Shown here: piece after piece, positions 27,530 to 51,200 of the stretch
How the letters are laid out: each line of letters starts with the position of its first letter
Numbering within the stretch: the stretch's first letter is position 1
Source of the DNA: Sphingobium sp. Z007
Lineage (GTDB): Bacteria > Pseudomonadota > Alphaproteobacteria > Sphingomonadales > Sphingomonadaceae
Direction of reading: 5' to 3'
NCBI RefSeq assembly: GCF_900013425.1
Contig: NZ_FBXK01000001.1
Span: forward strand, 594,001-658,000
DNA length: 64,000 nt
Made by a program: the position numbers and the translations under genes
The notes under the pieces: generated by a model
Told to the model about the DNA's origin: nothing
Database searches by the model: none
What the model saw: only the letters and a program-made list of their open reading frames with translations

Positions 27530-27545
27530 CAAATGACGTAATACA
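27530..27545 (-). promoter_or_regulatory. Operator site A, GntR-regulon motif upstream of the TonB receptor
   Basis: On the minus strand it reads TGTATTACGTCATTTG, 51 bp before the receptor start. With its flank it shares the 15-mer TCATATTATGTATTA exactly with site B upstream of the enolase-superfamily gene. Consensus of all six sites: TGTATKAYGTCWTAYG. Confidence 0.65.
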
Positions 27546-27555
27546 TAATATGAAT

Positions 27556-28827
27556 TTAGCGCACCGAGCGGATCGGCAGCACGCACAGCGCCGATCCGAA
27601 CACGAACAGCAGCGCCGCGATGAAGATCGCGCGATAGTCATTGTCGAAAACGCCAAGCAGGATGGCGGCCATCACCGGGCTGAGAATCTGGGGAATGTTG
27701 ACCGCCGTGGTCAGCACGCCCAGATCCTTGCCCTCGTCACCCAAAGCGCTTTTGGGCAGCACCTGCGTCATCAGCGCCATGTCGATCGACATGAACATGC
27801 CGTAGCCGATGCCGATCACCCCGGCATAAATCCACATGCCGGTCATGGATGGCGCGAGCAGCGGGGCCGTCATAGCCACGCCCATGATGAGGCTTCCCAG
27901 AACGACGAAGGGCTTGCGGCGTTGCCACCGGTCGGACAGCCAGCCTGAGATCAACGAGGACAAGACCAGGCATATCAGCGTCAGCAGCGCCATATTGGCG
28001 ATGGCGATGTTCGACGCGCCGTCGGCCAGGCCGATATAGTCGCGCAATATATAGAGAAGATAGGCGGCGACCGCCTGATAGCCCATATAGATGGTAAAGC
28101 GGCTGGCAAAGGCCCAGGCGAAATCGGGATGTTCGCGCGGACTGATCCAGAAGCTCTTGAAGAAACTGCCCCAGTGGATCGGACGTCGGGGCATCGCATC
28201 GCTCGGCGGCTCGCGATTGAGCGCGACGAATGCGAGGCACGAGGCGGCGATCGCGGCTGCGAACAGGCCATAGGCCAGCACCCGCTCCCCGGCCAGATAG
28301 CCGGCGACCACCGTGCCCGCCGTCAGCCCCGCGGTCATGCCCGCGCCGACGACGCCCGATACGCCACCGCGCGATACCGGTGAGAAGCGATCGGCGATCA
28401 GTGTCGTCATCGCCGGCTGCATGGCGTTATAGGCGATGGCGGCCATGACCCAGAGGATCATCAGTGACCAGAAACTGGTCATCAACGACACGCCGAACAG
28501 GCAGAGCGAGCCGATAAGCGATGCAATGGCGATCCAGGGCGTGCGCCGGCCCCAGCGGCTGCGCGTTCGATCCGACAGGGCGCCTGCGATCGGCGTCGCC
28601 AGGGTCGAGAAAACGGAGGTAATGGCGAACAGCAGCGCCAGATTGTTCTCCTTGGCTCCAGGCGACAGTTCGGCGATCTGGTTGGGCAGGAGCACACCCA
28701 ACACGCCGCTGTAGAGCGCCATCAGCAGGAAGAAATTGACCATTAGCGACAGTTGCAGCCGGATGCGCGCTGCGCCGGTCACCCAGGCTGGCGAGTCATC
28801 GTCGCTAGGGACGGGGATGCTGTGCAT
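27556..28827 (-). CDS. MFS transporter, probable sugar or sugar-acid importer
   Basis: 423 residues, about 12 predicted membrane segments. The MFS loop 2-3 motif is GALSDRTRSRWGRRTPWI, and a matching GWLSDRWQRRKPFVVLG lies between segments 8 and 9. Its start codon overlaps the stop of the preceding enolase-superfamily gene by one base (TGATG), so the two are coupled. It presumably moves a mono- or disaccharide released in the periplasm across the inner membrane. It is distinct from the ACS-type transporter at 53168. Confidence 0.88.
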   Translation of the reverse strand: MHSIPVPSDDDSPAWVTGAARIRLQLSLMVNFFLLMALYSGVLGVLLPNQIAELSPGAKENNLALLFAITSVFSTLATPIAGALSDRTRSRWGRRTPWIAIASLIGSLCLFGVSLMTSFWSLMILWVMAAIAYNAMQPAMTTLIADRFSPVSRGGVSGVVGAGMTAGLTAGTVVAGYLAGERVLAYGLFAAAIAASCLAFVALNREPPSDAMPRRPIHWGSFFKSFWISPREHPDFAWAFASRFTIYMGYQAVAAYLLYILRDYIGLADGASNIAIANMALLTLICLVLSSLISGWLSDRWQRRKPFVVLGSLIMGVAMTAPLLAPSMTGMWIYAGVIGIGYGMFMSIDMALMTQVLPKSALGDEGKDLGVLTTAVNIPQILSPVMAAILLGVFDNDYRAIFIAALLFVFGSALCVLPIRSVR

Positions 28828-29978
28828 CAGTCGGCCGCCCCGCCCTCAGGGACCAGGCGCAGTCCGGCATTACGCGGTCGGCGATGCGGCCCGCCGCGCA
28901 CGTTCCAGCCATTGCCCGCAACGCTTCGCGCGATCGCCGCTTCGTCGATGATGATGCCCAATCCGGGCCGGTCACCCAGCACGATGCCGCCATCGGCAAT
29001 TTGCTGATCGACGTCAAAGCCGGTGGGAAAGGCGAAATCCTGCACCTCGATGCCGATCATGTTCGGCACCGCGGCGGCGGCATGGGCGACCGGATTGGCG
29101 TTATAGGCGACCGGTGATACAGGCAGCCCGCGGGCATGGGCCGCCATGGCGACGCGGTGGAAATGGGTGATGCCCCACACGCTGCCGGTCTGCACGATGT
29201 CCACGGCGCAGGCATCGAACAAGGGCGCATATTGTTCCAGGCCGGTGAGATTTTCGCCTGTCGCCACCGCCGTTTTGACGGCGCGCGCTATGGCGGCATG
29301 GCCCGCCGCGTCCCAGCGACGCACCGGCTCCTCGATCCAGGTCAGGTCGATCTTCTTCTCGATCTCGGTCAGGTGCCGGATCGCCTGCTTGCAGTTCCAC
29401 GCTTCGTTGACGTCCAGCATCAGCGCAGGCCGACTGCTGTTGCGCGACAGGATGTCACGCACTGTTTCCAGTCGGGCGATGTCGCGGTCCAGATCGCGGC
29501 CGCCCTTGATCTTGGCTGCGGTGAACCCGCGATCGGCCCAGGCGTCATAATGGCTGGCGAACGCCGCCTCATCCAAGCCGTAGCATAGGCCGGATGCATA
29601 GCCCGGTACAAACCTGTCGCCCGCGCCCAAAGTGCGCCACAGCGGCTCCTCGGCCATCTTCGCCTTCAAATCCCAAAGCGCCATGTCGATTGCCGCTATC
29701 GTTCCGAAGGTGGCGCCGGCATGACCGCTTTTGAACACATGGGCGAGCATGGAGTCATACAGGCTTGATACCGCCCGTGGGTCTGCGCCCTCGACCGCGG
29801 GGAACAGCCGGCCGATCTCGCCATGCTGGCCAAGCCCGATGCCGGCCAGCCCGCCATCGGTTTCCAGCAGCAGGACCGGGACTTCGGTCACGCCCGCTTC
29901 CACGACGCCGTTGACGTCGCCGACCGGGCGGCGCCAGTCATGATAGGCGGTAAGGCTGCGATAGCCTGTAATCTTCAT
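28827..29978 (-). CDS. Enolase-superfamily sugar-acid dehydratase (mandelate racemase/MLE family)
   Basis: 383 residues from ATG 29978 (MKITGYRSL); the frame extends 20 codons upstream but that part is unlike the family. Barrel motifs: the K-x-K pair in AAKIKGGRDLD, and metal ligands in LMLDVNEAW, LTWIEEP and VATGENL. The region that should carry the catalytic His of the MR subgroup reads GLPVSPVAYNANP, with no His at the expected place, so mechanism or specificity may differ. By context it would dehydrate L-fuconate, L-rhamnonate or a related aldonate to the 2-keto-3-deoxy acid. It is first in its operon, with operator site B upstream. Confidence 0.82.
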   Translation of the reverse strand: MKITGYRSLTAYHDWRRPVGDVNGVVEAGVTEVPVLLLETDGGLAGIGLGQHGEIGRLFPAVEGADPRAVSSLYDSMLAHVFKSGHAGATFGTIAAIDMALWDLKAKMAEEPLWRTLGAGDRFVPGYASGLCYGLDEAAFASHYDAWADRGFTAAKIKGGRDLDRDIARLETVRDILSRNSSRPALMLDVNEAWNCKQAIRHLTEIEKKIDLTWIEEPVRRWDAAGHAAIARAVKTAVATGENLTGLEQYAPLFDACAVDIVQTGSVWGITHFHRVAMAAHARGLPVSPVAYNANPVAHAAAAVPNMIGIEVQDFAFPTGFDVDQQIADGGIVLGDRPGLGIIIDEAAIARSVAGNGWNVRGGPHRRPRNAGLRLVPEGGAAD

Positions 29979-30042
29979 CGGCGTGTAATCCTCATCGGGA
30001 TGTCCTCTACCCTTCCGGTCTAGCCGGCTCTGAGTCATATTA

Positions 30043-30058
30043 TGTATTATCTATCTCG
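30043..30058 (+). promoter_or_regulatory. Operator site B between the dehydratase and gntR genes
   Basis: TGTATTATCTATCTCG, preceded by TCATATTA. It lies 65 bp upstream of the dehydratase start (minus strand) and 92 bp upstream of the divergent gntR gene, so it may control both. The left half matches site A exactly; the right half is the weakest of the six. Confidence 0.55.
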
Positions 30059-30059
30059 T

Positions 30060-30086
30060 TTGACAAGTCTTGACGGCGCTTGTCAA
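30060..30086. promoter_or_regulatory. Perfect 8-bp inverted repeat upstream of gntR
   Basis: TTGACAAG (30060-30067) and CTTGTCAA (30079-30086) are exact inverted repeats separated by 11 bases, immediately after operator B and 64 bp before the gntR start. The left arm contains a TTGACA -35-like box. It may be an autoregulatory site or a second operator. Confidence 0.4.
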
Positions 30087-30149
30087 TCGGGTCCACGCTG
30101 GAAATTAGCGTCATGCAGGGCGCAGGCATGACAAAGGGCGTGACGATAC

Positions 30150-30899
30150 ATGCAGGATAGACTGGCCGGCGGGGCTTTGGCGGCAACGCAAAGGGTGCGG
30201 CGGCGTCCCCGCCTGGCCGAAGCGGTGGTCGAGGATCTGGTCAATGCGATCGTGACCGAAATGTACCCTGCCGGCACCGCGCTGCCGCCCGAAAACATGC
30301 TGTGCGACCTATATGGCGTCAGTCGGACCGTGGTGCGCGAAGCGACGACGGCACTGACCGAGAAGGGCCTGGTGGTATCGCAACAGGGGCGCGGGACGAT
30401 CGTGCGCGATTCGCGCGACTGGAACCTGCTGGACCCGATGATCCTGGCCGCCCTGTTCCGGCGGGAGGATGGCCTGTCTTATCTCGATAATCTCTCCGAG
30501 ATCCGTTCTTCGCTGGAAGCGTCGATGGCGGCCAAGGCAGCGAAGAATGCGACGTCTGAAAACATCGCTGAACTGACGGCGCAGATCGACAAGCTGGAAG
30601 GGCTGGTGGAAATGCCGGCCGCTTATGTGCTGGAGGATGTGCATTTCCACGACATCATCATGCGCATATCGGGCGACCGGCTGAGCAAGGCGATCATCGA
30701 CGGCATCCAGGGCAAGGCGCTCAACACGCATGGCTATGCCGGCAAGCTGAGCGTCGCGCATGTGCGGGACACCCAGGCGGCGCATCGGCGCGTCCACGAC
30801 GCGATCGTCGCAGGCGATCCAGAGGCGGCCGGCCGCGCGATGCGCGAACATATCGAATCCTCCTGGGCGAAGCGGCGCAGTTCCCGCGCTCAGGCCTAG
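30150..30899 (+). CDS. GntR-family regulator, FadR subfamily with FCD domain
   Basis: 249 residues. The N-terminal winged helix (about residues 22-88) reads VVEDLVNAIVTEMYPAGTALPPENMLCDLYGVSRTVVREATTAL. The all-helical FCD ligand-binding domain follows, with metal-ligand candidates in EDVHFHDIIMR, AHRRVHDAI and MREHIESSW. FadR-type regulators of this kind respond to sugar acids or 2-keto-3-deoxy acids, usually as repressors released by ligand. It sits in the centre of the region whose promoters share a GTATKAYGTC-containing operator, a sequence style fitting FadR-type proteins. It is therefore the likely regional repressor; the ligand is not known. Confidence 0.92.
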   Translation: MQDRLAGGALAATQRVRRRPRLAEAVVEDLVNAIVTEMYPAGTALPPENMLCDLYGVSRTVVREATTALTEKGLVVSQQGRGTIVRDSRDWNLLDPMILAALFRREDGLSYLDNLSEIRSSLEASMAAKAAKNATSENIAELTAQIDKLEGLVEMPAAYVLEDVHFHDIIMRISGDRLSKAIIDGIQGKALNTHGYAGKLSVAHVRDTQAAHRRVHDAIVAGDPEAAGRAMREHIESSWAKRRSSRAQA

Positions 30900-30907
30900 C
30901 GCGCTTC

Positions 30908-31273
30908 TCAGGGCTGTTGATCCAGCCCGTAAATCTGCTCCATTTCGGCCCAGGTGATGTCCGGCGCGAAGGGCAAGGGGCGTTGAAATGTCCGCATCAG
31001 CGCGTCCCAGGCCTGCACGTCCGGGTTGGCGGCGTCCCGCGCCGCCTTGGCAGCGCCGTTCGGCGCAAGAGCATTGTCCTGCTCCAGGAGCATGACGATC
31101 CGATCGCCTACAATCCATATCTGCAAATCCGTCACGCCATCGGCGCGGATCGCATCGGTCACTGCCTGCGGTGGGCCGCCGGGTTTGTGCCACTCGCGGT
31201 AACGCGCGATCGACTCCGGTTCGTCCACCAGATCGACCACGAAGCAGCGTCGCACAATCTCACCCAATGTCAT
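30908..31273 (-). CDS. L-rhamnose mutarotase family protein
   Basis: 121 residues from ATG 31273; an ATG 7 codons upstream is possible. The sequence RRCFVVDLVDEPESIARYREWHKPGGPPQAV...GVTDLQIWIVGDRIVMLLE follows the RhaM ferredoxin-like fold, including the early His of the H-x-P stretch and a late Trp-rich end. It interconverts alpha and beta anomers of L-rhamnose or L-fucose. It is convergent with gntR and divergent from the DUF4432 gene, with operator C between them. Confidence 0.82.
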   Translation of the reverse strand: MTLGEIVRRCFVVDLVDEPESIARYREWHKPGGPPQAVTDAIRADGVTDLQIWIVGDRIVMLLEQDNALAPNGAAKAARDAANPDVQAWDALMRTFQRPLPFAPDITWAEMEQIYGLDQQP

Positions 31274-31308
31274 TCTCCCGGTTGACGGTAGCACACAGCC
31301 TATATATT

Positions 31309-31324
31309 CATAATACGTCGTACA
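31309..31324 (-). promoter_or_regulatory. Operator site C between the mutarotase and DUF4432 genes
   Basis: The minus strand reads TGTACGACGTATTATG. The site ends 17 bp before the plus-strand gene at 31341 and lies 36 bp before the minus-strand mutarotase start. It is in position to control both divergent units, including the long operon to 40370. Confidence 0.62.
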
Positions 31325-31340
31325 AGATGGAGAGGCTAAA

Positions 31341-32519
31341 ATGGCCCGGCTTTATGGCGGCGACGTGTCGAAACGGCACATCGCCGAACGATCCGGCGCG
31401 CTATCGCAATTTGCAGGCGTGCGATTGATGACCTTGGCGGACGGGGTGGAGCGCGGCGTGCGGATGCTGCAATTCCGCACTGGTTCTGGCCTTGCCTTCA
31501 CCGTGCTGGTGGACCGCGCCATGGACATCGCCGAATGTGACCATGCCGGGCGCGCGGTCGGCTGGCATTCGCCATCGGGCTTCCGCCATCCTGGCCTGCA
31601 CGACTATGAAGGCGAGGGCGGCCTTGGCTGGTTCCGCTCCATGTCCGGCCTCAACATCACCTGCGGCCTCGACCATATCCTGTTCATGCATGACGATCCG
31701 GCCGGCCATTATCATTATGGCCCGCGCGAGAAGGTGTCTTCTTCGCTGCACGGCCGGGTCGGCACCATCCCAGCGCAACTCACCGGCTATGGCGAGCAAT
31801 GGGATGGCGACGCCTGCACCTTTTGGGCCGAAGGCATCGTCCGCCAATCTACGGTGTTTGGCGAGGACTTGCACCTCATCCGCCGGATCGAGGCCGATCT
31901 GGGCGGTGATGAAATCCGCCTGACCGACCGCGTGGTCAATCATGGCTTCTACCGCACGCCGCATATGTTCTGTTATCATATCAATGTCGGCCATCCGGTC
32001 GTGGCGGAGGGCGCGCGCTATGTCGCGCCGATCCGCGACGTGCTGTGGGCCGCCCACGCCGATGACTATCAGGCGCAGGGCGTGGGCTATCGCACTTTGC
32101 CAGCGCCGATCGTCAACTTCCATGAGCAGGTGTGGCAGCATGACATGGCGCCCGACGCAGATGGACGCGTCGAAGTCGCCATAGTCAACGAAGCGCTGGG
32201 CTTCGGCTTCTCGGTCCTCACCCGCAAGGATCAATTTCCCGCCATGTTCGAATGGCAGAATCTCCATGCCGGCCATTATGCGGTGGGGATCGAACCATCG
32301 ACCAACCATGTGCTAGGCAAGGATTTCGCACGCGACCGGGGCGAACTGATCGAACTGGAGCATGGCGAGGAACGCCGCTACGACACGATCCTGCGCGTCC
32401 TGCCCGATGCCGGTGCGGTGGTGGCGGCGGTGGCCCGGATCGAGGGTGTCCAGCGTCAGCCGGACGAGGATTATCCCATGCCTTCCGGCGACTATCCCCG
32501 GATCGGGGGCGCAGCATGA
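31341..32519 (+). CDS. DUF4432 aldose-1-epimerase-like protein
   Basis: 392 residues. It belongs to the galactose-mutarotase-like beta-sandwich superfamily by the runs FTVLVDRAMDIAECDHAGRAVGWHSPSGFRHP, GLNITCGLDHI, HGRVGTIPAQL and the late WQNLHAGHYAVGIEPSTNHV. These are the conserved stretches of DUF4432 proteins, which accompany sugar-acid operons. Probable role: epimerisation at the anomeric or an adjacent carbon of a free sugar. First gene of a tightly packed operon; ribosome site GGAGAGG. The next gene starts within its stop codon. Confidence 0.82.
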   Translation: MARLYGGDVSKRHIAERSGALSQFAGVRLMTLADGVERGVRMLQFRTGSGLAFTVLVDRAMDIAECDHAGRAVGWHSPSGFRHPGLHDYEGEGGLGWFRSMSGLNITCGLDHILFMHDDPAGHYHYGPREKVSSSLHGRVGTIPAQLTGYGEQWDGDACTFWAEGIVRQSTVFGEDLHLIRRIEADLGGDEIRLTDRVVNHGFYRTPHMFCYHINVGHPVVAEGARYVAPIRDVLWAAHADDYQAQGVGYRTLPAPIVNFHEQVWQHDMAPDADGRVEVAIVNEALGFGFSVLTRKDQFPAMFEWQNLHAGHYAVGIEPSTNHVLGKDFARDRGELIELEHGEERRYDTILRVLPDAGAVVAAVARIEGVQRQPDEDYPMPSGDYPRIGGAA

Positions 32520-33262
32520 AGGGTCGGACGGTCCTCTACACCGGCGCGGCCGGGGGCCTGGGTCTCGACACGACGCTGCTGCTGATCGAAGGCGGGGCGA
32601 CCGTGATCGCGATCGACAATGATCCGGCCAAGGTGGCGCGGCTCACCAAAGCGGCGGCAGGCAAGGGACCGGGGCGACTGGTCGTATCGACCGCCGATCT
32701 CTCCGACCTCGCCAGCTTTCGCGCAACGCTCGACACGCTCCTTGTCGACCATGGCGGCTTCGACATCGTCATTAACAATGCCGCCATCTACCCGTCCAAG
32801 CCGTTCGAGGATTTTTCGATCGAGGAGCATCAACTGGTCCAGCGGATCAATGTCGATGCCGGGATCGTCGCGGTGCAGGCGGCGCTGCCGGGGATGCGCG
32901 CCAGAGGCTTCGGGCGCATCATCAATATCGCCAGCATCACCCTGTCGGGCGGCTGGGCGAACCTGTCGCCCTATGTCGCGTCGAAGGGTGCGCTGGTCGG
33001 CCTGACCCGCGCCTGGGCGCGCGAATTCGGCCCCCATGGGGTCACCGTCAACGCGATCGCACCGGGCGCCTTCCCGACCGACGCAGAAAAAATCCACCCC
33101 GATCCGCTAGGCTATAACCGCATGGTGTTGGATGCGCAGGCGGTCAAGCGCCGCGGCGTCGCTGCCGATATCGCCTATGCCATCGCCTTTTTCGCCGCCG
33201 AGGAAGCGGGCTTCATCACTGGCCAGACGCTGCACGTCAACGGCGGCTGGGTCATGGCCTGA
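32516..33262 (+). CDS. SDR-family sugar or sugar-acid dehydrogenase
   Basis: 248 residues from the ATG that overlaps the previous stop (ATGA). The Rossmann motif is TGAAGGLG; the strand-2 end VIAIDND has Asp, so NAD is expected. NNAAIYPS, the active-site Ser in NIASITLSGG and Tyr/Lys in YVASKGAL follow, and the end is GFITGQTLHVNGGW. A classical SDR that in this setting would oxidise an aldose at C1 or a keto-deoxy acid at C4. A second SDR lies at 49491. Specificity is unresolved. Confidence 0.88.
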   Translation: MKGRTVLYTGAAGGLGLDTTLLLIEGGATVIAIDNDPAKVARLTKAAAGKGPGRLVVSTADLSDLASFRATLDTLLVDHGGFDIVINNAAIYPSKPFEDFSIEEHQLVQRINVDAGIVAVQAALPGMRARGFGRIINIASITLSGGWANLSPYVASKGALVGLTRAWAREFGPHGVTVNAIAPGAFPTDAEKIHPDPLGYNRMVLDAQAVKRRGVAADIAYAIAFFAAEEAGFITGQTLHVNGGWVMA

Positions 33263-33272
33263 AGGACCATCA

Positions 33273-34463
33273 ATGACCATTCTCAAGGATATTCGCGTTC
33301 TCGACTGCTCGATCGCCATGGCCGGGCCGTTCGCGGCGCAGCGGTTGGGCGATATGGGCGCCGACGTCGTCAAGGTCGAACCGACTAGCGGCGAATGGCA
33401 GCGCCACGCCTCGGCCGGCGGCGCGACCGGCAACAGCATCAACGTCTCCTTCCTCTCGCTCAACCGCAACAAGCGGTCGCTGGCGATCGATCTGAAATCG
33501 CCCGAAGGCAAGGCGGTGCTGCTCGACCTCGTGAAGGACGCCGACATCTTCCTCCAGAACTACCGCCCCGGCGTCGCCGAACGGCTTGGCGTCGATTATG
33601 CGACCCTGTCTGCGATCAACCCGCGCCTCATCTATGTGTCCATGTCCGGCTATGGCGAGGATGGACCCTATCGCCTTTATCCGGGGCAGGATCTGCTGCT
33701 CCAGGGCATGTCGGGCGCCATGCTGTCGGCCGGGGCGGAAGGCGCGCCGCCATCGCCCGCCGGCCAATATCTGGTCGATGCGGTGACCGCCTATACCGCC
33801 TTCGAAGGCGCGCTCGCCGCGCTCTTCCACCGCGAACGGACCGGGGAGGGGCAGCTGGTGCAGGTCAATATGCTCGACGCCATAACGACCCTCCAGATGC
33901 AGGAATTGTCGGTCTTCACCGTTGGCGGCAAAGCGCAGACGCGCTCTGCCGAACCCCACGCCCACAGCTATATCCGCGCGCCCTATGGCGTGTTCGCGAC
34001 GGCCGACGGCTATATGACGCTGGCCATGGCGTCGCTCAAAACATTGGGGCAGGTGCTGGACGATCCCTTCTTTGCCGAACTGGATGAAGAACGGGACGGC
34101 TGGACCCAGCGCGACGCCATCTTCGCCCAGGTGAAGACGCATCTCGTCACCCGTGATACCGCCTATTGGCTGGAGACGTTCCGCGCCGTCGATATCTGGT
34201 GCGGGCCGGTCTATGGCTATGCCGACTTGGTCGACGATCCACAGATCCAGCACAACGGCACTTTCGTCGAATATGACCATGCGACCGAAGGCCGGGTCAA
34301 GGTGCCGGGCTTCCCCATCCGCTTCTCCAAGACGCCGTCCGCCATTACCCGCGGCGCGCCGCTGGTCGGCGAACATAGCCGCGATGTGCTGGGGGAAATC
34401 GGTCGCAGCGAAGAGCAAATCGCGCAGCTGATCGAATCCGGCGTGGTGCGCCAGCACGCATGA
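33273..34463 (+). CDS. Type III CoA-transferase (CaiB/BaiF family)
   Basis: 396 residues from ATG 33273. The frame is open further upstream but only as a shadow of the SDR. It starts LKDIRVLDCSIAMAGPFAAQRLGDMGADVVKVEPTSGE, the classic CaiB/BaiF start, with NKRSLAIDLKSPEGK, and the catalytic Asp expected in GQYLVDAVTAY. The C-terminal region has PFFAELDEERDGWTQRD and TYGY-like substrate-loop features. It transfers CoA between carboxylic acids. Its presence in a sugar operon, directly followed by a solute-binding-like protein and an enoyl-CoA hydratase, is unusual and suggests that an organic acid made from the sugar is handled as a CoA ester. Confidence 0.9.
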   Translation: MTILKDIRVLDCSIAMAGPFAAQRLGDMGADVVKVEPTSGEWQRHASAGGATGNSINVSFLSLNRNKRSLAIDLKSPEGKAVLLDLVKDADIFLQNYRPGVAERLGVDYATLSAINPRLIYVSMSGYGEDGPYRLYPGQDLLLQGMSGAMLSAGAEGAPPSPAGQYLVDAVTAYTAFEGALAALFHRERTGEGQLVQVNMLDAITTLQMQELSVFTVGGKAQTRSAEPHAHSYIRAPYGVFATADGYMTLAMASLKTLGQVLDDPFFAELDEERDGWTQRDAIFAQVKTHLVTRDTAYWLETFRAVDIWCGPVYGYADLVDDPQIQHNGTFVEYDHATEGRVKVPGFPIRFSKTPSAITRGAPLVGEHSRDVLGEIGRSEEQIAQLIESGVVRQHA

Positions 34464-35581
34464 GCCTGCCCCATTATCGCGGCCTGACCTGGGATCATCC
34501 GCGCGGCTATCGCGCGCTGGAGGCGGCGGCGCGCGATATCGCGCCGGAGCAGGGGCTGACCATCGCCTGGGACCGCCATGCGCTGGAGGGGTTCGAAGCT
34601 GCGCCGATCGCCGATCTGGCCGCGCGCTACGACCTGATCGTGCTCGACCATCCGCATGTCGGCGAAGCGGTGGCGCAGGACTGCCTGCTGCCGATGGAAA
34701 GCCTGTTCGATGCCATCATGCTGGCGGAGTTGGAGAGGGCGGCGATCGGCCGTTCGCTCGTCAGTTATCGTTATGCCGATGCGCATTGGGCGCTGCCGCT
34801 CGACGCCGCGACGCAGGTCATGGCCCATGCCCGCGACCGGATCGATATACCACCCTCGACCTGGGATGCCGTGATCGCACTCGCCGCCAGCCAGCCCGTC
34901 GCGCTGTCGCTTGCCGGGCCGCACGCCATCCTCTCCTTCCAATCGATCGTTGCTGCACTGGGCGCGGTTCGTCCGGTAGACGGATTTGTCGATCGGCAGG
35001 CGGGCCGCGACGCCTATGCGATCATGGCGGCGCTGACAGGGGCGACCAGCCGCGCTTTTGTAGAGTCCAATCCTATCGCGCTGCTCGAAGCGATGGCGGC
35101 GGGTAAGGATATTGCCCTTGTGCCGCTCATTTACGGATATGTGAATTATGCCGCCGCAGGGCGCGTGAGTTTCGCTGATGCGCCGCGCGGGTCATCGGGC
35201 ATCGGATCGATCCTGGGCGGCACCGGCATCGCCGTGTCGAAACGCTGCGCCATGACCCCGGCGCTCAAAACGCACCTCCTTTGGCTGATGAGCGAGGAGG
35301 CCCAGCGCGACTTCATTCCCGCGCAGGACGGCCAGCCCTCGCTGCGCACCGCCTGGGCCGACCCGCAGGTCGATGCCCGCTGGGGCGGCTTCTACAGCGG
35401 GACGCGCGCCACGCTGGAGGCGGCCAGCCTGCGTCCGCGCCATGATGGCGCCATTCCCTTTCAGACCGAAGCCTCCGCCCGGCTCCGCGCCGCCCTGATC
35501 GACGGCGAGCCTGCCGATCCGGTGCTGGATACTATCGAAGCGGCTTTCCACCGCCATCATCGCAAAGGAACCGAGCTATGA
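34460..35581 (+). CDS. Solute-binding-protein-like fold without signal peptide (family 1 SBP-like)
   Basis: 373 residues; the start overlaps the CoA-transferase stop (ATGA). It begins MSLPHYRGLTWDHPRGYRALEAAARD, with no hydrophobic leader or lipobox. Inside it shows the pattern of extracellular solute-binding proteins: RYDLIVLDHPHVGEAV, WALPLDAATQVMAHARDRIDIPPSTWDAVIALA, GKDIALVPLIYGYVNYA and ILGGTGIAVSKRCAMTPALKTHLLWLMSEEAQRDF. No ABC permease or ATPase is nearby. The stop overlaps the next gene. It is therefore probably a cytoplasmic protein that binds, or has evolved to act on, a metabolite of this operon. I do not recognise a characterised relative. Confidence 0.75.
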   Translation: MSLPHYRGLTWDHPRGYRALEAAARDIAPEQGLTIAWDRHALEGFEAAPIADLAARYDLIVLDHPHVGEAVAQDCLLPMESLFDAIMLAELERAAIGRSLVSYRYADAHWALPLDAATQVMAHARDRIDIPPSTWDAVIALAASQPVALSLAGPHAILSFQSIVAALGAVRPVDGFVDRQAGRDAYAIMAALTGATSRAFVESNPIALLEAMAAGKDIALVPLIYGYVNYAAAGRVSFADAPRGSSGIGSILGGTGIAVSKRCAMTPALKTHLLWLMSEEAQRDFIPAQDGQPSLRTAWADPQVDARWGGFYSGTRATLEAASLRPRHDGAIPFQTEASARLRAALIDGEPADPVLDTIEAAFHRHHRKGTEL

Positions 35582-36348: not shown

Positions 36349-36351
36349 CCC

Positions 36352-40383: not shown

Positions 40384-40420
40384 CTCTCATTATGTAATAC
40401 GTCATACAACATAATGAGAG
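40384..40420. promoter_or_regulatory. Operator site D with perfect 12-bp flanking inverted repeat, upstream of GH28
   Basis: CTCTCATTATGT (40384-40395) and ACATAATGAGAG (40409-40420) are perfect inverted repeats. Between and partly within them lies the core TGTAATACGTCATACA (40393-40408), which reads as TGTATGACGTATTACA on the other strand, so it is the most symmetrical of the six operators. It ends 9 bp before the GH28 start codon, spanning the ribosome-site region. Confidence 0.68.
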
Positions 40421-42055: not shown

Positions 42056-42065
42056 AGGAATGACG

Positions 42066-44212: not shown

Positions 44213-44243
44213 AAAAAAATAGCCGCCCGGCGAACCGGGCGGC
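44213..44243 (-). terminator. Rho-independent terminator of the GH78 operon
   Basis: The stem GCCGCCCGG/CCGGGCGGC (44222-44230 with 44235-44243) has loop CGAA and is followed, on the minus strand, by a T run (A tract at 44213-44219 on plus). It lies 16 bp beyond the GH78 stop and is the clearest intrinsic terminator in the window. Confidence 0.85.
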
Positions 44244-44259
44244 CAGTGGGGGGATGGAT

Positions 44260-47200
44260 TCAGCGCGCGACAGTGAAGCGATAGTCGCCCGATCCGGCCT
44301 CCAGCACGAAGCGGTCGCCGCGCACGCCGATCGGGCGAAGCCATGCTACCGCGCCGATCCCTTGCCCGCCTTCGCGGATCGCATCGATGGAGGCGGCTGG
44401 CAGATGGATTTCTGCGCGACTGTTGGCCGGCACGCTGATGTCCGCCGTGAAACCGTCCGCCCGATTATGCCAGTCGGTGCGGATCGGCCCCAACACGCTG
44501 TCATAACTGGCCCCGCCGCGTTCCAGCCTTTTGTCCAGCACAGGATTGAAGCGCCAGGTCAGGAAACCCGCCGAAGTCGGATCGATCCCCGCGACGCGGC
44601 GGAAGATGAAGCCCGCCACCGCGCCCAGCGCATAATGATTATAGCTGTTCATCGCGGAATCGACCATGTCGGCATTCCACCGCTCCCAGATGGTGGTCGC
44701 GCCCTTGGCGATCATATAGCCCCAGGACGGAAAGGCGGTGCGCAGCAGCAGGTCATAGACCAGCGCTTCCTGCCCCGCATCCGCCAGCGCGTCGAGGCTG
44801 TAGGGCGTGCCGAGGAAGCCGGTAGAGATCAGCGTGCCCCGCCGGCGAATATCGGCCGCCAGCTTCGCGGTGGCTGCGGCGCGCAGCGGTTCGGGCACCA
44901 GGCCAAAGCGCAGGGCGAGGATATAGCCGCAATGCGACCCATTGCCGACGCTGCCTTCCGCTTTCACGAAAGCCTTGGCGAAAGCGGCGGCGATGTCGCG
45001 CGACAATTGACGGTAGCGTTCGCCCTCCGGCTGGCGACGCGACCCGAACGCCATATCGGCCATGGCGTCGGCCGAATGTTTCCACATGGCGGTCGCGATC
45101 AGATCCTTGGGCGTCGTTTCGTCGCTCGGCTTCTTGGCGTCCAGCGCGACCCAATCGCCATAGTCATAGCCACGCAGATTGCGCCAGATATGGTCGGTAT
45201 TATGCTCGACGAGAAACCGCATATAGCGCGTCATCGACGCCCAGTTGCGGTCCACGATGGCGGTGTCGCCATAGCGCTGCCACACCGTCCAGGGCAGGAT
45301 GACGCCCGCGTCCGCCCAGCCGGGCGACGCGCCCAGCGCCAGATCGCGCCAGCCCGTCGGCGCATAATCGGGATATTCCCCGCGCGGCCCCTGCGCATCG
45401 CGCACATCGCCCATGAAACGATGGGTGAAGGGGCCGACGTCCATGGTGAAAGCCGCCGCATCCCAGAAGACATTCGCGTCGCCGGTCCAGCCCAGCCGCT
45501 CGTCACGCTGCGGGCAGTCGGTCGGCACGCCAAAGAAGTTGGACCGCTGGCTCCAACGGCTATTCTGCCACAACCCCTGGATGATGCGGTTTTCGACCAG
45601 CAGCCTGCCGGTTTCGGGCAGGGCGCTCGACAGGACGATGCCGGTGACTTCATCGGCCGTCGGCGCACGGCCAAGGCCGCTGACCTCGACATAGCGGAAG
45701 CCGAAATAGGTGAAATGCGGCTGATAGCTCTCACCCGCCGGGTCGCCGCGGAAGGTGTAGAGGCAGGACGCGCGCGCCGCGCGCAGGTTGGCGACATCGA
45801 CCGTGCCGTCGGGATGCAATATTTCCGCAAAGCGCAGCGACACGGTCTGCCCGGCCGCGCCCTTCGCTTTCAGTTCGGCCCAACCGGCGAAATTCTGGCC
45901 GAAGTCGATGACATGCCGGTCACCGTCAAAGCTGCGGATGGTGACGGGCTGCCGCCGTTCGATCGCGCGGATCGGCGGGGCGACATGGGCGCGCAGGCGG
46001 CAGGGTGGCGTCTGGCCGATGCGCGCGGGCGTCCAGCCCCTCGCCCGATAGCCGGGGCTGGACCAGCCGGGTTGTTCGCGCCGGGCGTCATAATCCTCGC
46101 CATAATAGATTTCCGCCTGGGTGATCGGCGTGTCGGTCTGGAGCTGCCATTTGTCGTCGGTGGTGACGATCGACAGGCTGCCATCGTCATGTTCGACCTC
46201 CAGCTGCGCGAACAGGCGCAGCGGCGGGTCGCCAAAGGCGTAGCGGCCGGCCGGCGCATGATAGCTGCCATACCAGCCCTCGCCCAGCAGCGCGCCGATG
46301 GCATTATTACCGGGACGAAGCAGGGCGGTCACGTCGTAGGTCCGTACCAGCACCGTCTCGCGAAAATCGCTGCTTTCCGGCGCGAGATGGGCATCGCCGA
46401 CGCGCTGGCCGTTAATCTCCGTCACATAGGCGCCCAGCGCCGTGACGCGCAGCCGCGCCTGCCGGATCGGGCGTTTCAGGTCGAAGTCGCGCCGCAGCAT
46501 ATAGGCGCCCGCCCGCGGCCAGGCCTGGGGCTGATGGACGGACCGCTCTGCCTGCGCCCAGCCCGCGTCGTTGAACGCCACGGCCTGCCAGCCAACGGGC
46601 GCGTGGGTGGCGGTACGCATCGCCTGGCTGGTGATGCGCCGCTCGCCTGCACGGATCATCAGCGCGGCGGCGATCTCATGCATTTTGGGTTCGTCGAATC
46701 CTTCGGGATCGGTCACCTCGATCGCCACGACATGGCGGCCGGAAGCCAGCTTATGCTGCGTCTCCGCGATCGGCTCTGCGCCGAAGCGGTGGGGACCGCG
46801 CGGGGGCAGGGCGACCGGCTCGCCATCCATCCAGACCAGCGGCGCGCGGAAATTGCCGATCGAAAACAGGGTGACATCGCCCGCCTTCTCCAGGTCGAAG
46901 GCGAAGCGGAACTGCCGGGGCGCTTTATCCTTCGGCCGATCGCCGCGCATCCACCGCAGCCCGGCGGCGCGGTCTGCGCGCTCCAGGTCGGTTTGCGCCT
47001 CGATCCATTGCGCTTTCCAATCGGCGCTATCGAGCAATCCCATCTCGAAGATGGCGACCGGGCTGGTCGCGCGCACGCCGCGATCGTCGCGCACCAGCAC
47101 GCGCCAGAACACGCGCTGGCGCGACCTGAGCGGCGCACCCAGCCAGCCCATGTCCATGCTCTTGTCGGTCAGCACTTCGCCCGCATGCCACAGGTCGGGC

Positions 47201-47451
47201 GTGCCCCCCTCCAGCAGGGCGCGGCTGCTCGCCGCCTGCACTTCGCACCGGGCCTGGCGCACGGCGCGGTCGCGGCTTTCCAATCGCCAGGACAGGCGGA
47301 CATCCTGCTGGTCCAGGCCGATAGGATCGACCAGCCCCTCGGCGCGCAGATCGACGATGCGCAGGTCGTCAGCCTCCTGCGCTTTCGCTGCAAAAGCGGG
47401 CAGGCCAGCGAGCGCGCCCGCGCCCTTGAGCAACGTCCGACGTTCGATCAT
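44260..47451 (-). CDS. GH78 alpha-L-rhamnosidase, Tat-exported
   Basis: 1063 residues. Tat signal MIERRTLLKGAGALAGLPAFAAKAQ. It then has the N-terminal beta-sandwich domains and the (alpha/alpha)6 barrel. The general acid is expected in CPQRDERLGWTGDANVFWD (about residue 650) and the base in TTIWERWN (about residue 922), both conserved GH78 blocks. It releases terminal alpha-L-rhamnose, which feeds the 6-deoxyhexose pathway encoded nearby. Its start overlaps the stop of the beta-helix gene by 4 bp. A long open frame on the opposite strand is a GC-bias artefact. Confidence 0.93.
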   Translation of the reverse strand: MIERRTLLKGAGALAGLPAFAAKAQEADDLRIVDLRAEGLVDPIGLDQQDVRLSWRLESRDRAVRQARCEVQAASSRALLEGGTPDLWHAGEVLTDKSMDMGWLGAPLRSRQRVFWRVLVRDDRGVRATSPVAIFEMGLLDSADWKAQWIEAQTDLERADRAAGLRWMRGDRPKDKAPRQFRFAFDLEKAGDVTLFSIGNFRAPLVWMDGEPVALPPRGPHRFGAEPIAETQHKLASGRHVVAIEVTDPEGFDEPKMHEIAAALMIRAGERRITSQAMRTATHAPVGWQAVAFNDAGWAQAERSVHQPQAWPRAGAYMLRRDFDLKRPIRQARLRVTALGAYVTEINGQRVGDAHLAPESSDFRETVLVRTYDVTALLRPGNNAIGALLGEGWYGSYHAPAGRYAFGDPPLRLFAQLEVEHDDGSLSIVTTDDKWQLQTDTPITQAEIYYGEDYDARREQPGWSSPGYRARGWTPARIGQTPPCRLRAHVAPPIRAIERRQPVTIRSFDGDRHVIDFGQNFAGWAELKAKGAAGQTVSLRFAEILHPDGTVDVANLRAARASCLYTFRGDPAGESYQPHFTYFGFRYVEVSGLGRAPTADEVTGIVLSSALPETGRLLVENRIIQGLWQNSRWSQRSNFFGVPTDCPQRDERLGWTGDANVFWDAAAFTMDVGPFTHRFMGDVRDAQGPRGEYPDYAPTGWRDLALGASPGWADAGVILPWTVWQRYGDTAIVDRNWASMTRYMRFLVEHNTDHIWRNLRGYDYGDWVALDAKKPSDETTPKDLIATAMWKHSADAMADMAFGSRRQPEGERYRQLSRDIAAAFAKAFVKAEGSVGNGSHCGYILALRFGLVPEPLRAAATAKLAADIRRRGTLISTGFLGTPYSLDALADAGQEALVYDLLLRTAFPSWGYMIAKGATTIWERWNADMVDSAMNSYNHYALGAVAGFIFRRVAGIDPTSAGFLTWRFNPVLDKRLERGGASYDSVLGPIRTDWHNRADGFTADISVPANSRAEIHLPAASIDAIREGGQGIGAVAWLRPIGVRGDRFVLEAGSGDYRFTVAR

Positions 47452-49448
47452 GGCCGCACCCCCGCTTCATCGATCACCCTTTGCGCATCGGCCGGCCAGT
47501 CCCGATTGGGCAAGAGTATATTGTCGCGCGCGACATTGCCGATCTCCTCTAGCCAGCGGCCGCCGGTGCTGTTGGCAATATGCCAGTTGCCGGTCGCGAT
47601 ATTGTCGGTGGAGATGCGCCGTTGATACATTTTACCGGCGGTGTTGATGTTCAGCCATTTGCCGCGCGTCTCGATCACATTGCCGGTGACGCGGAAATGT
47701 TTCGACCCTTCGTCCAGATACAGGCCGATCTTGTCGCCAATGTCGAAAATATGGTTGCCGCGCACGATCGCATTGGGGTTGGCCGACAGATTATAGATCG
47801 CGCCGCCATCCATGAACCAGCTTTTCACGCCATGGATGCGGTTGCCCTCGATCAGCGTGTCGCGCAGCGTCGTGGGCGTCCTATATTTGATATTATGGAC
47901 GTATCCCTTGGCATTTTCGTCATAATTGGCATTGCCGCCCGCATCATTATAGCCCCAGCCCCACCCGACGGCGATGCCGTCATAGGGCGCATCGCTGATG
48001 TCGTTATGGGCGATGCGGGCGCCGCTGATGTATGTTGTCAGGATCGCGGCATTATCCTTATAATCCTGCGAGACGGTGGCGACGACATTATCCTCGATCG
48101 CGATGTCGCGGTTGATGCGGTTGGCATTGCCCGGATGATGCGCCTCTACCCGGATGCCGCCCGCCATGATCGCACTGCCCGACAGGACCGTGAAGCGGTT
48201 GCGCGTCACGCGGATGTTGCTGGTGGCGAGGCCCACGCCCGACAGGTTGGCATTGGCGTCATTGCCGATGCCAAGCCCGATCTGCCCCAGTTGCGAAAAC
48301 TGGTTGCGTTCGAAGACGACATCGCGCGCTGACGACACCTGCACCGCGGCGGGCATCTGGTTCCATTTTTGGCGCATCGATTCAAATTCGACACAGCCCC
48401 AGCCGCATGTCTTCCATGCGTCGGCTGGCCGGATCGGCGAGGTTTCGGCCAGGAACGATCCGCTCTGCTGGTTGGCGTAGCCGGTGGCGCGCGATGCGCC
48501 GAGCCAGCTGCTATGGGAAAAGCGCAGCCCTTCGAACCGCAGCCGCTCGACCGGCGCGTCGGGCGTGCCGCTGATCGACACCAATGTCTCCAGCCGGGGC
48601 AAGACGACGCGGCGCTTGGCGATATCCTCGTCCAATCCCATGCGCAGATACAGCTTGCCCGCTTGCGGATCGATCACCCACTGATAGGGCTTGCTGTGCC
48701 ATTCGTTGGTCTTGCCCACAAACTCCAGCGCATTGACCAGGAACAGGCGGCTGTCCTCCGGGAAAATCGGCTTGGTGATCGTGTCATAGCCCCAGCTATT
48801 ATTGTCCCAGGCGGGCTGCGCCATGGTGACCTGCGCGCCCTCGATCGCCTGCACCGGCGACACGCGATCGGTGAAGAAACCGGTCGCCTCCAGCTCCATC
48901 CGATCAGGGCGCTTGACCTGTGAAATCCATTGAAGATCGGGATTGATAATGTCGAAACCGGTGGCGTTGAACGTCACGTCAGAAGGGCGAATCTCGATCC
49001 AGGGCCGTTCCGCCAGCGTGTCGTCCACCCAAAGCTGACGCGCATCGATGCCCTTGGGCACGTCGGCGACGTAAAGGCGGCGTTCGGCATCGAAGGGTTT
49101 GAAGCCGTTCACGACTTGGCCGCCCGACAGCATCGGATGGGCCCCTTCGGCTGCGCGCCAGGTGACGCTATGGCCATTCAACCCGCCATCGGCCCGGTGA
49201 AAGAGCAGGGGGGCGTCGAGCGTGTAGGTGCCATCCGCCAGAATGACCGCGATGTCGCGCTGCGCATTGCTTTGCCGCACCAACACTTGCGCGTGGGTCA
49301 GCGAACGCACCGGACGCGCCTGCGTGCCGGGCGCGTGATCGTCGCCAGCGGGGGAGACATGGACCAGCAGCGGCCCCTCCTGCGCCGCGGCCGTCAGCGG
49401 CATTGTCGCTGCTAAAGCCGCGCCGATTATCAGGCTGCGCTTCATCAT
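47448..49448 (-). CDS. Secreted right-handed beta-helix protein, possible glycoside hydrolase (GH141-like) or lyase
   Basis: 666 residues with signal peptide MMKRSLIIGAALAATMPLTAAAQ. The mature start LLVHVSPAGDDHAPGTQARPVRSL and then VTWRAAEGAHPMLSGGQVVNGFKPF are typical of long beta-helix carbohydrate-active proteins. Repeats such as VFERNQFSQLGQIGLGIGNDANANL follow, with an insert of about residues 150-270. The layout recalls GH141 (alpha-L-fucosidase/xylanase) and its unclassified neighbours, but I cannot place catalytic residues. It sits in an operon between the SDR gene (42-bp gap) and GH78. Confidence 0.78.
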   Translation of the reverse strand: MMKRSLIIGAALAATMPLTAAAQEGPLLVHVSPAGDDHAPGTQARPVRSLTHAQVLVRQSNAQRDIAVILADGTYTLDAPLLFHRADGGLNGHSVTWRAAEGAHPMLSGGQVVNGFKPFDAERRLYVADVPKGIDARQLWVDDTLAERPWIEIRPSDVTFNATGFDIINPDLQWISQVKRPDRMELEATGFFTDRVSPVQAIEGAQVTMAQPAWDNNSWGYDTITKPIFPEDSRLFLVNALEFVGKTNEWHSKPYQWVIDPQAGKLYLRMGLDEDIAKRRVVLPRLETLVSISGTPDAPVERLRFEGLRFSHSSWLGASRATGYANQQSGSFLAETSPIRPADAWKTCGWGCVEFESMRQKWNQMPAAVQVSSARDVVFERNQFSQLGQIGLGIGNDANANLSGVGLATSNIRVTRNRFTVLSGSAIMAGGIRVEAHHPGNANRINRDIAIEDNVVATVSQDYKDNAAILTTYISGARIAHNDISDAPYDGIAVGWGWGYNDAGGNANYDENAKGYVHNIKYRTPTTLRDTLIEGNRIHGVKSWFMDGGAIYNLSANPNAIVRGNHIFDIGDKIGLYLDEGSKHFRVTGNVIETRGKWLNINTAGKMYQRRISTDNIATGNWHIANSTGGRWLEEIGNVARDNILLPNRDWPADAQRVIDEAGVRP

Positions 49449-49490
49449 CGTCTCTCCATGGTTGCGCTCTTGTATCGGCGCTTATGCGTG

Positions 49491-50219
49491 TCAGTTGACC
49501 CAGCCGCCGTCGATCACATTGACCGTGCCGGTGGTGAAGGCGGATTCATCCGAGGCGAGATAGACCGCCAGCGCCGCCAGTTCCCCGACCCGGCCGAACC
49601 GGCCCATCGCCTGGCGCGCGGTAAACTCGGCATAGGCCCTGTCGAAATCGCCGGTGTCGTGCAGCCGCTGGATCAGCGAGGGGGTTTCCACCGTGCCGGG
49701 GCAAATCGCGTTGCAGCGTATCCCCTTGGTCACGAAATCGATCGCCACCGATTTGGTCAGGCCGATCACCGCCGCCTTGGTCGCGCCATAGGCGAAGCGG
49801 TTGGGCACCGCCTTGATGCTGGAGCAGATGGACGACATGTTGATGATCGACCCGCCGCCGCGCGCGATCATGTTGGGCAACACGGCGCGGATCATGCGAT
49901 ATTGGGCGGTGACGTTCAGACTGTTGGAGAAGGTCCATTCCGCTTCGTCACAGTCCAATATGGTCCCGGCATGGACCCGGCCGGCGCAATTATAAAGGAT
50001 GTCGATGTCGGGGTGCGTCGCCGCGATCGCCTGCACCGCCGCCGGATCGGTGACGTCCAGCGCCTGTGCCTCCACCCCGTCGATGTCGGCCAGCGCCTCG
50101 GCGCGCACATCGGTCGCAATGACGCGCGCGCCTTCGCGGACGAAGGCCTCTACCGTCGCGCGGCCGATCCCCTGGCCCGCCGCCGTCACCAGCGCGGTCT
50201 TGCCTGCCAGACGTCCCAT
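49491..50219 (-). CDS. SDR dehydrogenase, 2-keto-3-deoxy-L-fuconate / L-rhamnonate 4-dehydrogenase type
   Basis: 242 residues, start MGRLAGKTALVTAAGQGIGRATVEAFVREGARVIATDV. The motif TAAGQGIG with Asp after strand 2 (NAD) and YGATKAAVIGLTKSVA is the BDH2/LRA5-like subgroup that acts on 2-keto-3-deoxy-fuconate or -rhamnonate. Ser and Tyr of the active site lie in NMSSICSS and RFAYGATK. Its product, 2,4-diketo-3-deoxy acid, is the substrate of the hydrolase encoded just upstream (50278-51126), which supports the call. Operator E lies 26 bp upstream. Confidence 0.87.
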   Translation of the reverse strand: MGRLAGKTALVTAAGQGIGRATVEAFVREGARVIATDVRAEALADIDGVEAQALDVTDPAAVQAIAATHPDIDILYNCAGRVHAGTILDCDEAEWTFSNSLNVTAQYRMIRAVLPNMIARGGGSIINMSSICSSIKAVPNRFAYGATKAAVIGLTKSVAIDFVTKGIRCNAICPGTVETPSLIQRLHDTGDFDRAYAEFTARQAMGRFGRVGELAALAVYLASDESAFTTGTVNVIDGGWVN

Positions 50220-50244
50220 TGTCCTGCTCCATATTTAGATAATA

Positions 50245-50260
50245 TGTATGATGTTTAAGC
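50245..50260 (+). promoter_or_regulatory. Operator site E upstream of the SDR-betahelix-GH78 operon
   Basis: TGTATGATGTTTAAGC, in the 58-bp gap between the hydrolase stop and the SDR start. Sites E and F share TGTATGATGT exactly. It implies an internal promoter for the SDR, beta-helix and GH78 genes. Confidence 0.6.
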
Positions 50261-50277
50261 AGGATGAAGAAGGGCTG

Positions 50278-51126
50278 TCAATCGGCGGCGACGAAGCTCT
50301 GTTGCTGTGCGCCCAGCTTCTCGATGCCCAGGGTCACGACATCGCCGGCTTTCAGATACCATGGCTCCGGCTTCTGCCCCAGGCCAACGCCCGGCGGGGT
50401 GCCGGTGGTGATGATATCGCCGGGCAGCAGCGTCATGAACTGGCTGAGATAGGCGACGATCTGCGCCACGGTGAAGATCATCGTCTGCGTGTTGCCGTCC
50501 TGCTTGCGCACATCATTGACGTCCAGCCACATGGACAGCGCCTGCGGATCGCCCACTTCGTCGGCGGTCACCAGCCAGGGACCGATTGGGCCAAAGGTGG
50601 GAAAACCCTTGCCCTTGTCCCATGTCGCGCCGCGCTCTGTCTGCCATTCGCGTTCCGACACGTCGTTGATGACGCAATAACCCGCGACATGGGCCAGCGC
50701 GTTGGCTTCGGTGACACGATGCGCGGTGGTGCCGATGATGACACCCAGTTCGACTTCCCAATCGGTCTTGCGCGACTCCATGGGGATGGTGACGGGATCG
50801 TTCGGCCCCTGGATGCAACTGACCCATTTGCTGAAGACGACCGGTTCTTCCGGGATCGGCAAATTTGATTCGGCGGCATGATCGGCATAGTTCAGCCCGA
50901 TCGCGACGAACTGACGGGTGCCGGCGACGGGAGGGCCATAGCGAACCGGGCCTTCGACCAGCGGCAGGGTGGCGACGTCAATCGCCGCCAGTCGCGCTAG
51001 CCCGTCCGGTCCGATCGCCGCGCTGTCCAGGTCGGCGATATAGGCCGACAGATCGCGCAGGCGGCCGTCGGCATCGACCAGCGCGGGGCTTTCCTGCCCG
51101 GCTTCCCCGATACGGCATAATTTCAT
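50278..51126 (-). CDS. 2,4-diketo-3-deoxy-L-fuconate / L-rhamnonate hydrolase (FAH family)
   Basis: 282 residues. Short N-terminal domain MKLCRIGEAGQESPALVDADG, then the FAH fold: FVAIGLNYADHAAESN, PVVFSKWVSCIQGPNDPVTIP, metal ligands in KTDWEVELGVIIG and INDVSEREWQTERGATWDKGKGFPTFGPIGPWLV, and IITTGTPPGVGLGQKPEPWYLKAGD. This is the family of LRA6 from Sphingomonas and of the fuconate-pathway hydrolases, which cleave the diketo acid to pyruvate and L-lactate. The adjacent SDR supplies the substrate, and LldD at 39240 consumes the lactate. Confidence 0.9.
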   Translation of the reverse strand: MKLCRIGEAGQESPALVDADGRLRDLSAYIADLDSAAIGPDGLARLAAIDVATLPLVEGPVRYGPPVAGTRQFVAIGLNYADHAAESNLPIPEEPVVFSKWVSCIQGPNDPVTIPMESRKTDWEVELGVIIGTTAHRVTEANALAHVAGYCVINDVSEREWQTERGATWDKGKGFPTFGPIGPWLVTADEVGDPQALSMWLDVNDVRKQDGNTQTMIFTVAQIVAYLSQFMTLLPGDIITTGTPPGVGLGQKPEPWYLKAGDVVTLGIEKLGAQQQSFVAAD

Positions 51127-51184
51127 GATGAACGTCCTTTCTTATGGCATGGCGTCAAGCGGCATGGACAGCCGCGCATCTTAT

Positions 51185-51200
51185 TGTATGATGTCTTATG
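51185..51200 (+). promoter_or_regulatory. Operator site F between the hydrolase and lactonase units
   Basis: TGTATGATGTCTTATG, with a further TTTGTATGAA just after it. It lies 58 bp upstream of the hydrolase start (minus strand) and 23 bp upstream of the leader ATG at 51224, so it can control both divergent units. Confidence 0.65.

Follow-up and report, generated by a model that had tools for sequence, protein, structure and literature searches.

The stretch of DNA analysed here, called the window throughout, is a 64,000-nucleotide piece of the genome of Sphingobium sp. Z007 (contig NZ_FBXK01000001.1, positions 594,001 to 658,000), and all coordinates are those of the window. It carries genes for a TonB-dependent receptor, transporters, glycoside hydrolases and catabolic enzymes, together with a gene for a GntR/FCD regulator (30150-30899, plus strand; PF00392, 65.5 bits; PF07729, 79.9 bits) and six copies of a 16-bp motif, named A to F. 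These six sites are very probably operators of the GntR protein, the proposed cognate factor, which would repress an L-rhamnose/rhamnogalacturonan system and would let go of the DNA upon binding of a rhamnose-derived acid. An earlier note, made from the letters of this stretch, had listed the six motif sequences, and all of them were found where it placed them; its 16-bp register stands for C, D and F, whereas A, B and E have to be moved by one 7-bp heptad, and D reads on the minus strand.

Operator A (CATATTATGTATTACG, 27537-27552, minus strand) lies upstream of the gene for the TonB-dependent receptor (24729-27479, minus), immediately before a TTGACA box at 27532; the gene for a Sde182-like protein (23267-24712, minus) is probably co-transcribed with the receptor. 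Next come an MFS transporter (27556-28827, minus) and an enolase-superfamily sugar-acid dehydratase, MR_MLE (28827-30038, minus). Operator B (CATATTATGTATTATC, 30036-30051, plus) sits between MR_MLE and the GntR gene and lies over the -10 of the strongest promoter-like match found there (TTGTCA-16-CATAAT, 30066-30039). Operator C (TGTACGACGTATTATG, 31309-31324, minus) separates rhaM, an L-rhamnose mutarotase gene that had been missed by the earlier note (30908-31294, minus; PF05336, 63.8 bits for a cutoff of 23.4), from a long operon on the plus strand. This operon begins with a DUF4432 protein (31341-32519), of an aldose-epimerase-like family, and continues (32516-40370) with an SDR, a CoA-transferase III, a protein of 373 amino acids (aa) with no family above cutoff, an enoyl-CoA hydratase, a FAH-domain protein, a 2-hydroxyacid dehydrogenase, a P-loop protein and the L-lactate dehydrogenase LldD.

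Further right, operator D (TGTATGACGTATTACA, 40393-40408, minus), with inverted arms ATTATGT...ACATAAT, is found upstream of GH28, the first of two glycoside hydrolase genes, GH28 and GH2 (40430-44123, plus). An alpha-L-rhamnosidase (44260-47451; Bac_rhamnosid domains, GH78-type, 382.8 bits), a beta-helix protein (47448-49448) and a second SDR, SDR2 (49491-50219), follow on the minus strand, with operator E (GATAATATGTATGATG, 50238-50253, plus) upstream of SDR2. Operator F (TGTATGATGTCTTATG, 51185-51200, plus) lies between a second FAH-type gene, FAH2 (50278-51126, minus; 239.6 bits), and a unit on the plus strand (51184-54451) that encodes an amidohydrolase-2 lactonase candidate, an aldo-keto reductase and an MFS transporter; it overlaps a TATGAT -10-like box at 51187. 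That all six sites are intergenic, as first claimed, holds once two start codons are corrected: the open reading frame (ORF) of MR_MLE, called at 30038, probably starts near 29995, and that of the lactonase, called from a TTG at 51184, probably starts near 51222. We also recovered the 15-mer TCATATTATGTATTA that A and B have in common and the sequence TGTATGATGT common to E and F.

The operator consensus is CRTATKAYGTATKATG, that is, two abutting heptads, each of the form RT-N3-AY; when 50 promoter windows of 10 genomes were aligned de novo, the result was C-RTATKAY-GTATKAT-G. Four positions of this alignment (T8, A12, T15 and A19) are invariant in 50/50 sites, an invariance that is due in part to selection, the windows having been picked around matrix matches. 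RT-N3-AY fits all 100 heptads of the 50 sites, and C, instead of K, is the prevailing base beside the left box. The single GT...AC palindrome expected by the earlier note has to be given up in favour of this tandem arrangement, a perfect GT-N3-AC heptad being present in just 17 of the 50 sites. Mean column similarity comes to 0.651 over 9 column pairs when columns are compared at a direct step of 7, to 0.607 over 8 pairs for a palindrome whose centre falls between the two heptads, and to 0.653 over 4 pairs when the left heptad is folded on its own centre; we therefore describe the operator with both direct-repeat and palindrome symmetry, and the description of each site simply as one 16-bp palindrome was rejected. 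The signal at lag 7 stands 11.7 standard deviations above shuffles; there is none at lag 14, and a third heptad is thus unsupported. Within a given site, the left and right heptads match each other no better than in chance pairing (4.80 vs 4.78 mean matches).

One has to ask whether such sites could be mere chance similarity among A+T-rich intergenic stretches. Indeed, the excess obtained with the consensus of the earlier note is modest: TGTATKAYGTCWTAYG with at most 3 mismatches has 7 matches in the window for 1.5 expected, and 1 of 100 shuffles reaches 7. Sites B and E, as first placed, are absent among these 7 matches, and the modest excess is explained by the tandem-heptad nature of the motif, with A, B and E shifted by one 7-bp unit. 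By contrast, when YRTAWKAYGTATKATG is searched through the 4.94-Mb genome with at most one mismatch, the only five matches are operators A, B, C, E and F of the region, for 0 with the reversed control. With at most two mismatches, 22 rows were obtained genome-wide, 7 of them in the region, for 8 rows with the control. The window-derived pattern TGTANNAYGTNNTAYR occurs at 4 distinct places in the genome, 3 of them in the region; the fourth (C5:984239), inside an ORF of 469 aa, was taken as chance. Finally, a matrix built from 39 sites, all from other genera, ranks the six operators 1, 2, 3, 4, 5 and 7 in the window, with scores of 20.6-27.7 for A, B, C, E and F and 15.2 for D; in 200 block-shuffled windows, the 95th percentile of the best score is 17.6 and the overall maximum 21.7. 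With five of five genome-wide matches in the region, four columns invariant in all 50 selected sites and the orthologue loci described below, the probability that the sites arose by chance is practically nil.

The same promoters were compared in related sphingomonads, and the sites are kept both in aligned Sphingobium promoters and in other genera, where eight genomes have promoters with sites. Operator A is kept in 7/7 aligned Sphingobium promoters and altered in G081 (by 1 base) and G005 (by more); C was found in 5/5 aligned genomes, with base changes; D is near-identical in 7/8 aligned Sphingobium promoters, the G005 copy being diverged yet recognisable; E is kept in 7/8 aligned promoters. 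In G005, gene order differs and SDR2 has an F-type site instead, located between a GH28 paralogue and SDR2.

The motif is also tightly coupled to the regulator gene. GntR orthologues (83-100% identity) are present in 9/94 Sphingobium genomes, and the window-derived pattern was found in 9/9 genomes with GntR vs 6/85 without it (one match in each of the 6). In a wider draw from the family, 9/397 genomes have GntR; with one mismatch allowed, the pattern YRTAWKAYGTATKATG, which was built partly from these same nine genomes, gave 3-8 rows in each of them and, as read from the table, at least 3 rows in 6 of the 388 genomes without GntR. We then relied on orthologue loci, comparing the best 80 of 215 relatives. 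Relatives at 69-92% identity belong to Sphingobium, Sphingomonas, Croceibacterium, Croceicoccus, Tsuneonella, Asticcacaulis and Brevundimonas, and those at 53-56% to Pleomorphomonas, Martelella, Consotaella, Asticcacaulis benevestitus and a metagenome-assembled genome. A matrix score of at least 20 is reached in 31 of the 32 loci of the first group, in 5/5 of the second and in 2/43 loci with relatives at no more than 40%. Matches of at least 13 number 118 in the 32 orthologue loci, including 23 from 5 loci of training genomes, vs 6.7 in shuffles; they number 14 vs 1.0 in the five loci at 53-56% and 5 vs 8.3 in the 43 most distant loci.

The regulator and its targets are inherited together, so that presence and absence do not fully tell a true regulator from a gene that merely travels along; the sites could then belong to another regulator inherited with the cluster, and an AsnC-type gene does lie nearby, at 54475. 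Several observations make this very improbable. The first is distance: in five genomes (G026, G041, G067, G080 and G081), the GH28 and lactonase sites are separated from GntR, either by lying on a different contig or by about 50-60 kb, and still precede the orthologous gene (for G067, whose contigs are short, the distance is not proven); in G026, GntR is on contig C81 and the sites on C38 and C75, and in G080 the sites are about 50-60 kb from GntR. Likewise, G138 has its DUF4432 operon about 60 kb and its FAH2/GH28 pair about 170 kb from GntR, with a site directly upstream of each. Outside the 40-kb stretches of the other-genus genomes with GntR, 5 of 7 places matching the pattern are directly upstream of regulon-type genes, namely a beta-helix/rhamnogalacturonase-type pair (twice), the DUF4432 operon, the FAH2/GH28 pair and a TonB receptor; of the other two, one precedes an esterase gene next to a TonB receptor and the other is in no recognised gene. 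An eighth place (L074) is at the edge of a stretch, and three further matches come from genomes without GntR (L078, L079 and L083). Secondly, small loci in Pleomorphomonas, Martelella, Consotaella and the metagenome-assembled genome have in common GntR with a site between it and MR_MLE; this arrangement is found in four of the five loci at 53-56% identity (those four at 53-54%), and in the fifth (L119) sites also precede MR_MLE, in another gene order. Thirdly, strong matches are rare in loci with relatives at no more than 40% identity, as the 2/43 count above indicates.

The fourth observation, operator decay, bears on another explanation as well, namely that the motif is a conserved core-promoter element rather than an operator: TATKAT resembles a -10 box, and at several promoters the heptads, similar as they are to TATAAT, share bases with a -10-like box. 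Two genomes without GntR, G029 and G070, keep FAH2 (85%) and the lactonase (about 80%) side by side. Alignment of the FAH2/lactonase promoter shows no operator left in G029 and a near-invariant base of it changed in G070, whereas the eight aligned genomes with GntR keep the operator; the matrix scores are 19.5-23.1 with GntR and 4.8 and 13.2 without it (G029 and G070, respectively). Both genes being retained, a loss or alteration in the same promoter region speaks against a core-promoter element and against another regulator alike. A core-promoter element is further hard to reconcile with two heptads kept at a fixed 7-bp step, in both orientations, and with the position of site A outside the promoter hexamers, which leaves this explanation scarcely credible. 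In G090 and G069, FAH2 is kept with other neighbours and there is no site (2.6 and 7.3). More generally, none of 15 scanned FAH2- or MFS1-type loci without GntR reached a score of 15 (top score 13.7), the scan having covered 23 of the 42 loci fetched.

The claim of a single regulon under the local GntR protein is thus supported by the co-occurrence of motif and gene, by promoters of other genera, by orthologue loci, by distant targets and by operator decay. A number of points weigh against it. Shared descent may contribute to the co-occurrence counts, and in the strain's own genome the reversed control of TGTANNAYGTNNTAYR gives as many rows as the pattern itself (5 and 5), so that raw counts there prove nothing and location and GntR-less genomes are the better controls. 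One orthologue locus, L113 (Asticcacaulis tiandongensis), has no match of at least 20 within 10 kb (best 16.8), and two distant loci, L135 and L146, do have one. Shuffled windows reach scores as high as that of D, and a stray match at 19987 (17.1) exceeds it; the case for D rests on its near-identity among Sphingobium promoters. The promoter boxes are consensus look-alikes, with 3 promoter-like sites found at 27300-31500 for 1.2 expected, and A is upstream of its -35-like box, which leaves room for a different control of the receptor. Lastly, 102/388 family genomes without GntR have at least one match at 1 mismatch, part of which is a dif-like element.

As for these last genomes, many have a single CATAATATGTATTATC-type match, and a second regulator was considered and rejected, 8/8 fetched loci (L066-L072 and L080) reading GATAATAYRTATTATGTWAA. 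A mazG gene is present in 6 of these 8 loci, and the element resembles the chromosomal XerCD dif site. It is a source of false positives for the operator motif. The stray match of the window (TATCTGACGTCTGATG, 19987-20002), which takes rank 6, is at the end of an ORF and is probably due to chance. In distant locus L146 (Undibacterium squillarum), whose GntR relative has 32% identity, TGTATGATGTCGTATG is found at about 9910, about 75 bp upstream of the matched start, and is the identical 16-mer to site F of several Sphingobium genomes.

How would the GntR protein act on these sites? Candidate -10 boxes are overlapped by D and F and adjoined by C and E. All operators except A lie over or next to a -10-like box, the usual position for repression, and this mode seems the most likely. 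The protein could also bind these sites as an activator, or with a dual role, and not as a plain repressor, and operator A, just upstream of a -35-like box, does occupy a frequent activator position; set against the other five sites, we consider this unlikely. Under repression, GntR would sit on the operators without inducer, mostly over or beside the -10 region, and would keep down the receptor, the transporters, the glycoside hydrolases and the catabolic enzymes, perhaps also its own gene, whose intergenic region holds site B. An intermediate formed during rhamnose metabolism, most likely an acid (L-rhamnonate, 2-keto-3-deoxy-L-rhamnonate or the like), would bind the FCD domain and release GntR. 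An acid derived from rhamnose is a likely inducer because FadR-type regulators take small organic acids as effectors (PMC4494728).

By its domains, the protein belongs to the FadR (FCD) subfamily, with an N-terminal GntR winged helix-turn-helix (HTH) and a C-terminal FCD domain, both above cutoff. The TKGT-N3(or N2)-ACMA palindrome of that subfamily was not recovered, given the low share of GT-N3-AC sites reported above; this leaves membership by domain standing, since other exceptions to the operator rule are named in PMC4494728. According to the same source, N3 spacing is named for DgoR, FadR, LldR and PdhR, and HTH position 28 is Arg in most FadR-type proteins. Each heptad here fits a relaxed RT-N3-AY version of the FadR-type TKGT-N3-ACMA operator, but two boxes abut at 7 bp, and position 28, counted from the Pfam match, is Asn/Gly (residue 49), which agrees with an operator that departs from the TKGT box. 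The best-scoring NCBIfam model is NanR (NF003011, 123.7 bits, below its cutoff of 260 bits), and the NanR structure 6on4 is among the nearest solved structures. E. coli NanR, of the sialic acid regulon, is likewise an FCD-type member of the GntR/FadR subfamily, and its operator too is made of short repeats with a GTAT core and has no single clean palindrome; it binds three GGTATA repeats through three cooperating dimers about half a turn apart, and has an N-terminal extension of 32 residues (PMC8012715). The operator described here differs in having two units with a 7-bp period; 21 residues precede the Pfam HTH match in our protein, HTH position 28 is Arg in NanR, and no sialic acid gene was found among the window proteins scanned, the targets being rhamnose/pectin-type genes. 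We tentatively suggest, as a possibility that we would not yet favour, that the operator consists of two abutting FadR boxes in relaxed form, offset by 7 bp or about 240 degrees of helical turn, and that each may be occupied by a GntR dimer, the two dimers being neighbours on different DNA faces. This would be a compact way of reading tandem repeats, unlike both the single FadR palindrome and the NanR repeats; it would extend from Sphingobium as far as Pleomorphomonas and Martelella, and would be linked to the change of the usual Arg to Asn/Gly at HTH position 28. In any case, the tandem-heptad operator offers a test case for direct-repeat reading by FCD-type GntR proteins.

The earlier view of a polysaccharide/sugar-acid region stands, and the substrate can now be narrowed to L-rhamnose/rhamnogalacturonan, as suggested by rhaM and the alpha-L-rhamnosidase, the rhamnose-specific genes among the targets, and by enzymes of a non-phosphorylative pathway. 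The lactonase candidate, MR_MLE, SDR2 (a candidate 2-keto-3-deoxy-rhamnonate dehydrogenase), FAH2 (a candidate diketo-3-deoxy-rhamnonate hydrolase) and LldD fit the non-phosphorylative L-rhamnose pathway, in an order of steps that we infer. This is the pathway that Watanabe and Makino reportedly described in 2009 for Sphingomonas sp. (cited in PMC3870299). The non-phosphorylative pathway also has a diketo branch. A candidate lactonase, a dehydratase, an SDR, a FAH-type hydrolase and a lactate dehydrogenase are all present in the window, with the difference that a CoA-transferase/enoyl-CoA hydratase operon and glycosidases share the same operator. The operon under operator C (31341-40370) joins CoA-type enzymes with DUF4432, an SDR and LldD, and we know of no CoA-dependent sugar-acid route under rhamnose control. 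DUF4432, the SDR, the CoA-transferase and the enoyl-CoA hydratase go with the regulon in 8/8 other-genus genomes (near GntR in 7, about 60 kb away in G138), and neither DUF4432 nor the CoA-transferase was seen in seven Asticcacaulis/Brevundimonas loci (69-75% identity; one only 4.2 kb long). Tying this operon of unassigned substrate to rhamnose control makes its pathway testable.

The proposed regulon resembles those of RhaR, RhaS, RhiR, RhgR and RhmR, mostly local regulons for L-rhamnose or rhamnogalacturonides; the rhamnose regulators named in passages of PMC3870299 are of the AraC, DeoR and LacI types, which a GntR type would join. The words "GntR" and "FadR" occur 0 times in the main text of that paper, and we found no GntR-type rhamnose/rhamnogalacturonan regulator of sphingomonads in the open literature searched, including passages of PMC3870299, PMC5343134 and PMC5507952, with RegPrecise and subscription papers outside the search. 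The proposed regulator, with its operator code and its list of targets, would bear on the use of pectin side chains by a group of plant- and soil-associated bacteria for which this open literature showed no published rhamnose regulator.

No transfer RNA gene was found in the window and no Rfam match at 18000-58000. Just outside the regulon, at 54475-55912, an AsnC/Lrp regulator is divergent from a biopterin-dependent aromatic amino acid hydroxylase. On the other side, at 20475-23084, FolD, a formyltetrahydrofolate-deformylase-like protein and a weak MTHFR-like protein are encoded together beside the receptor unit, as in one-carbon/O-demethylation gene sets.

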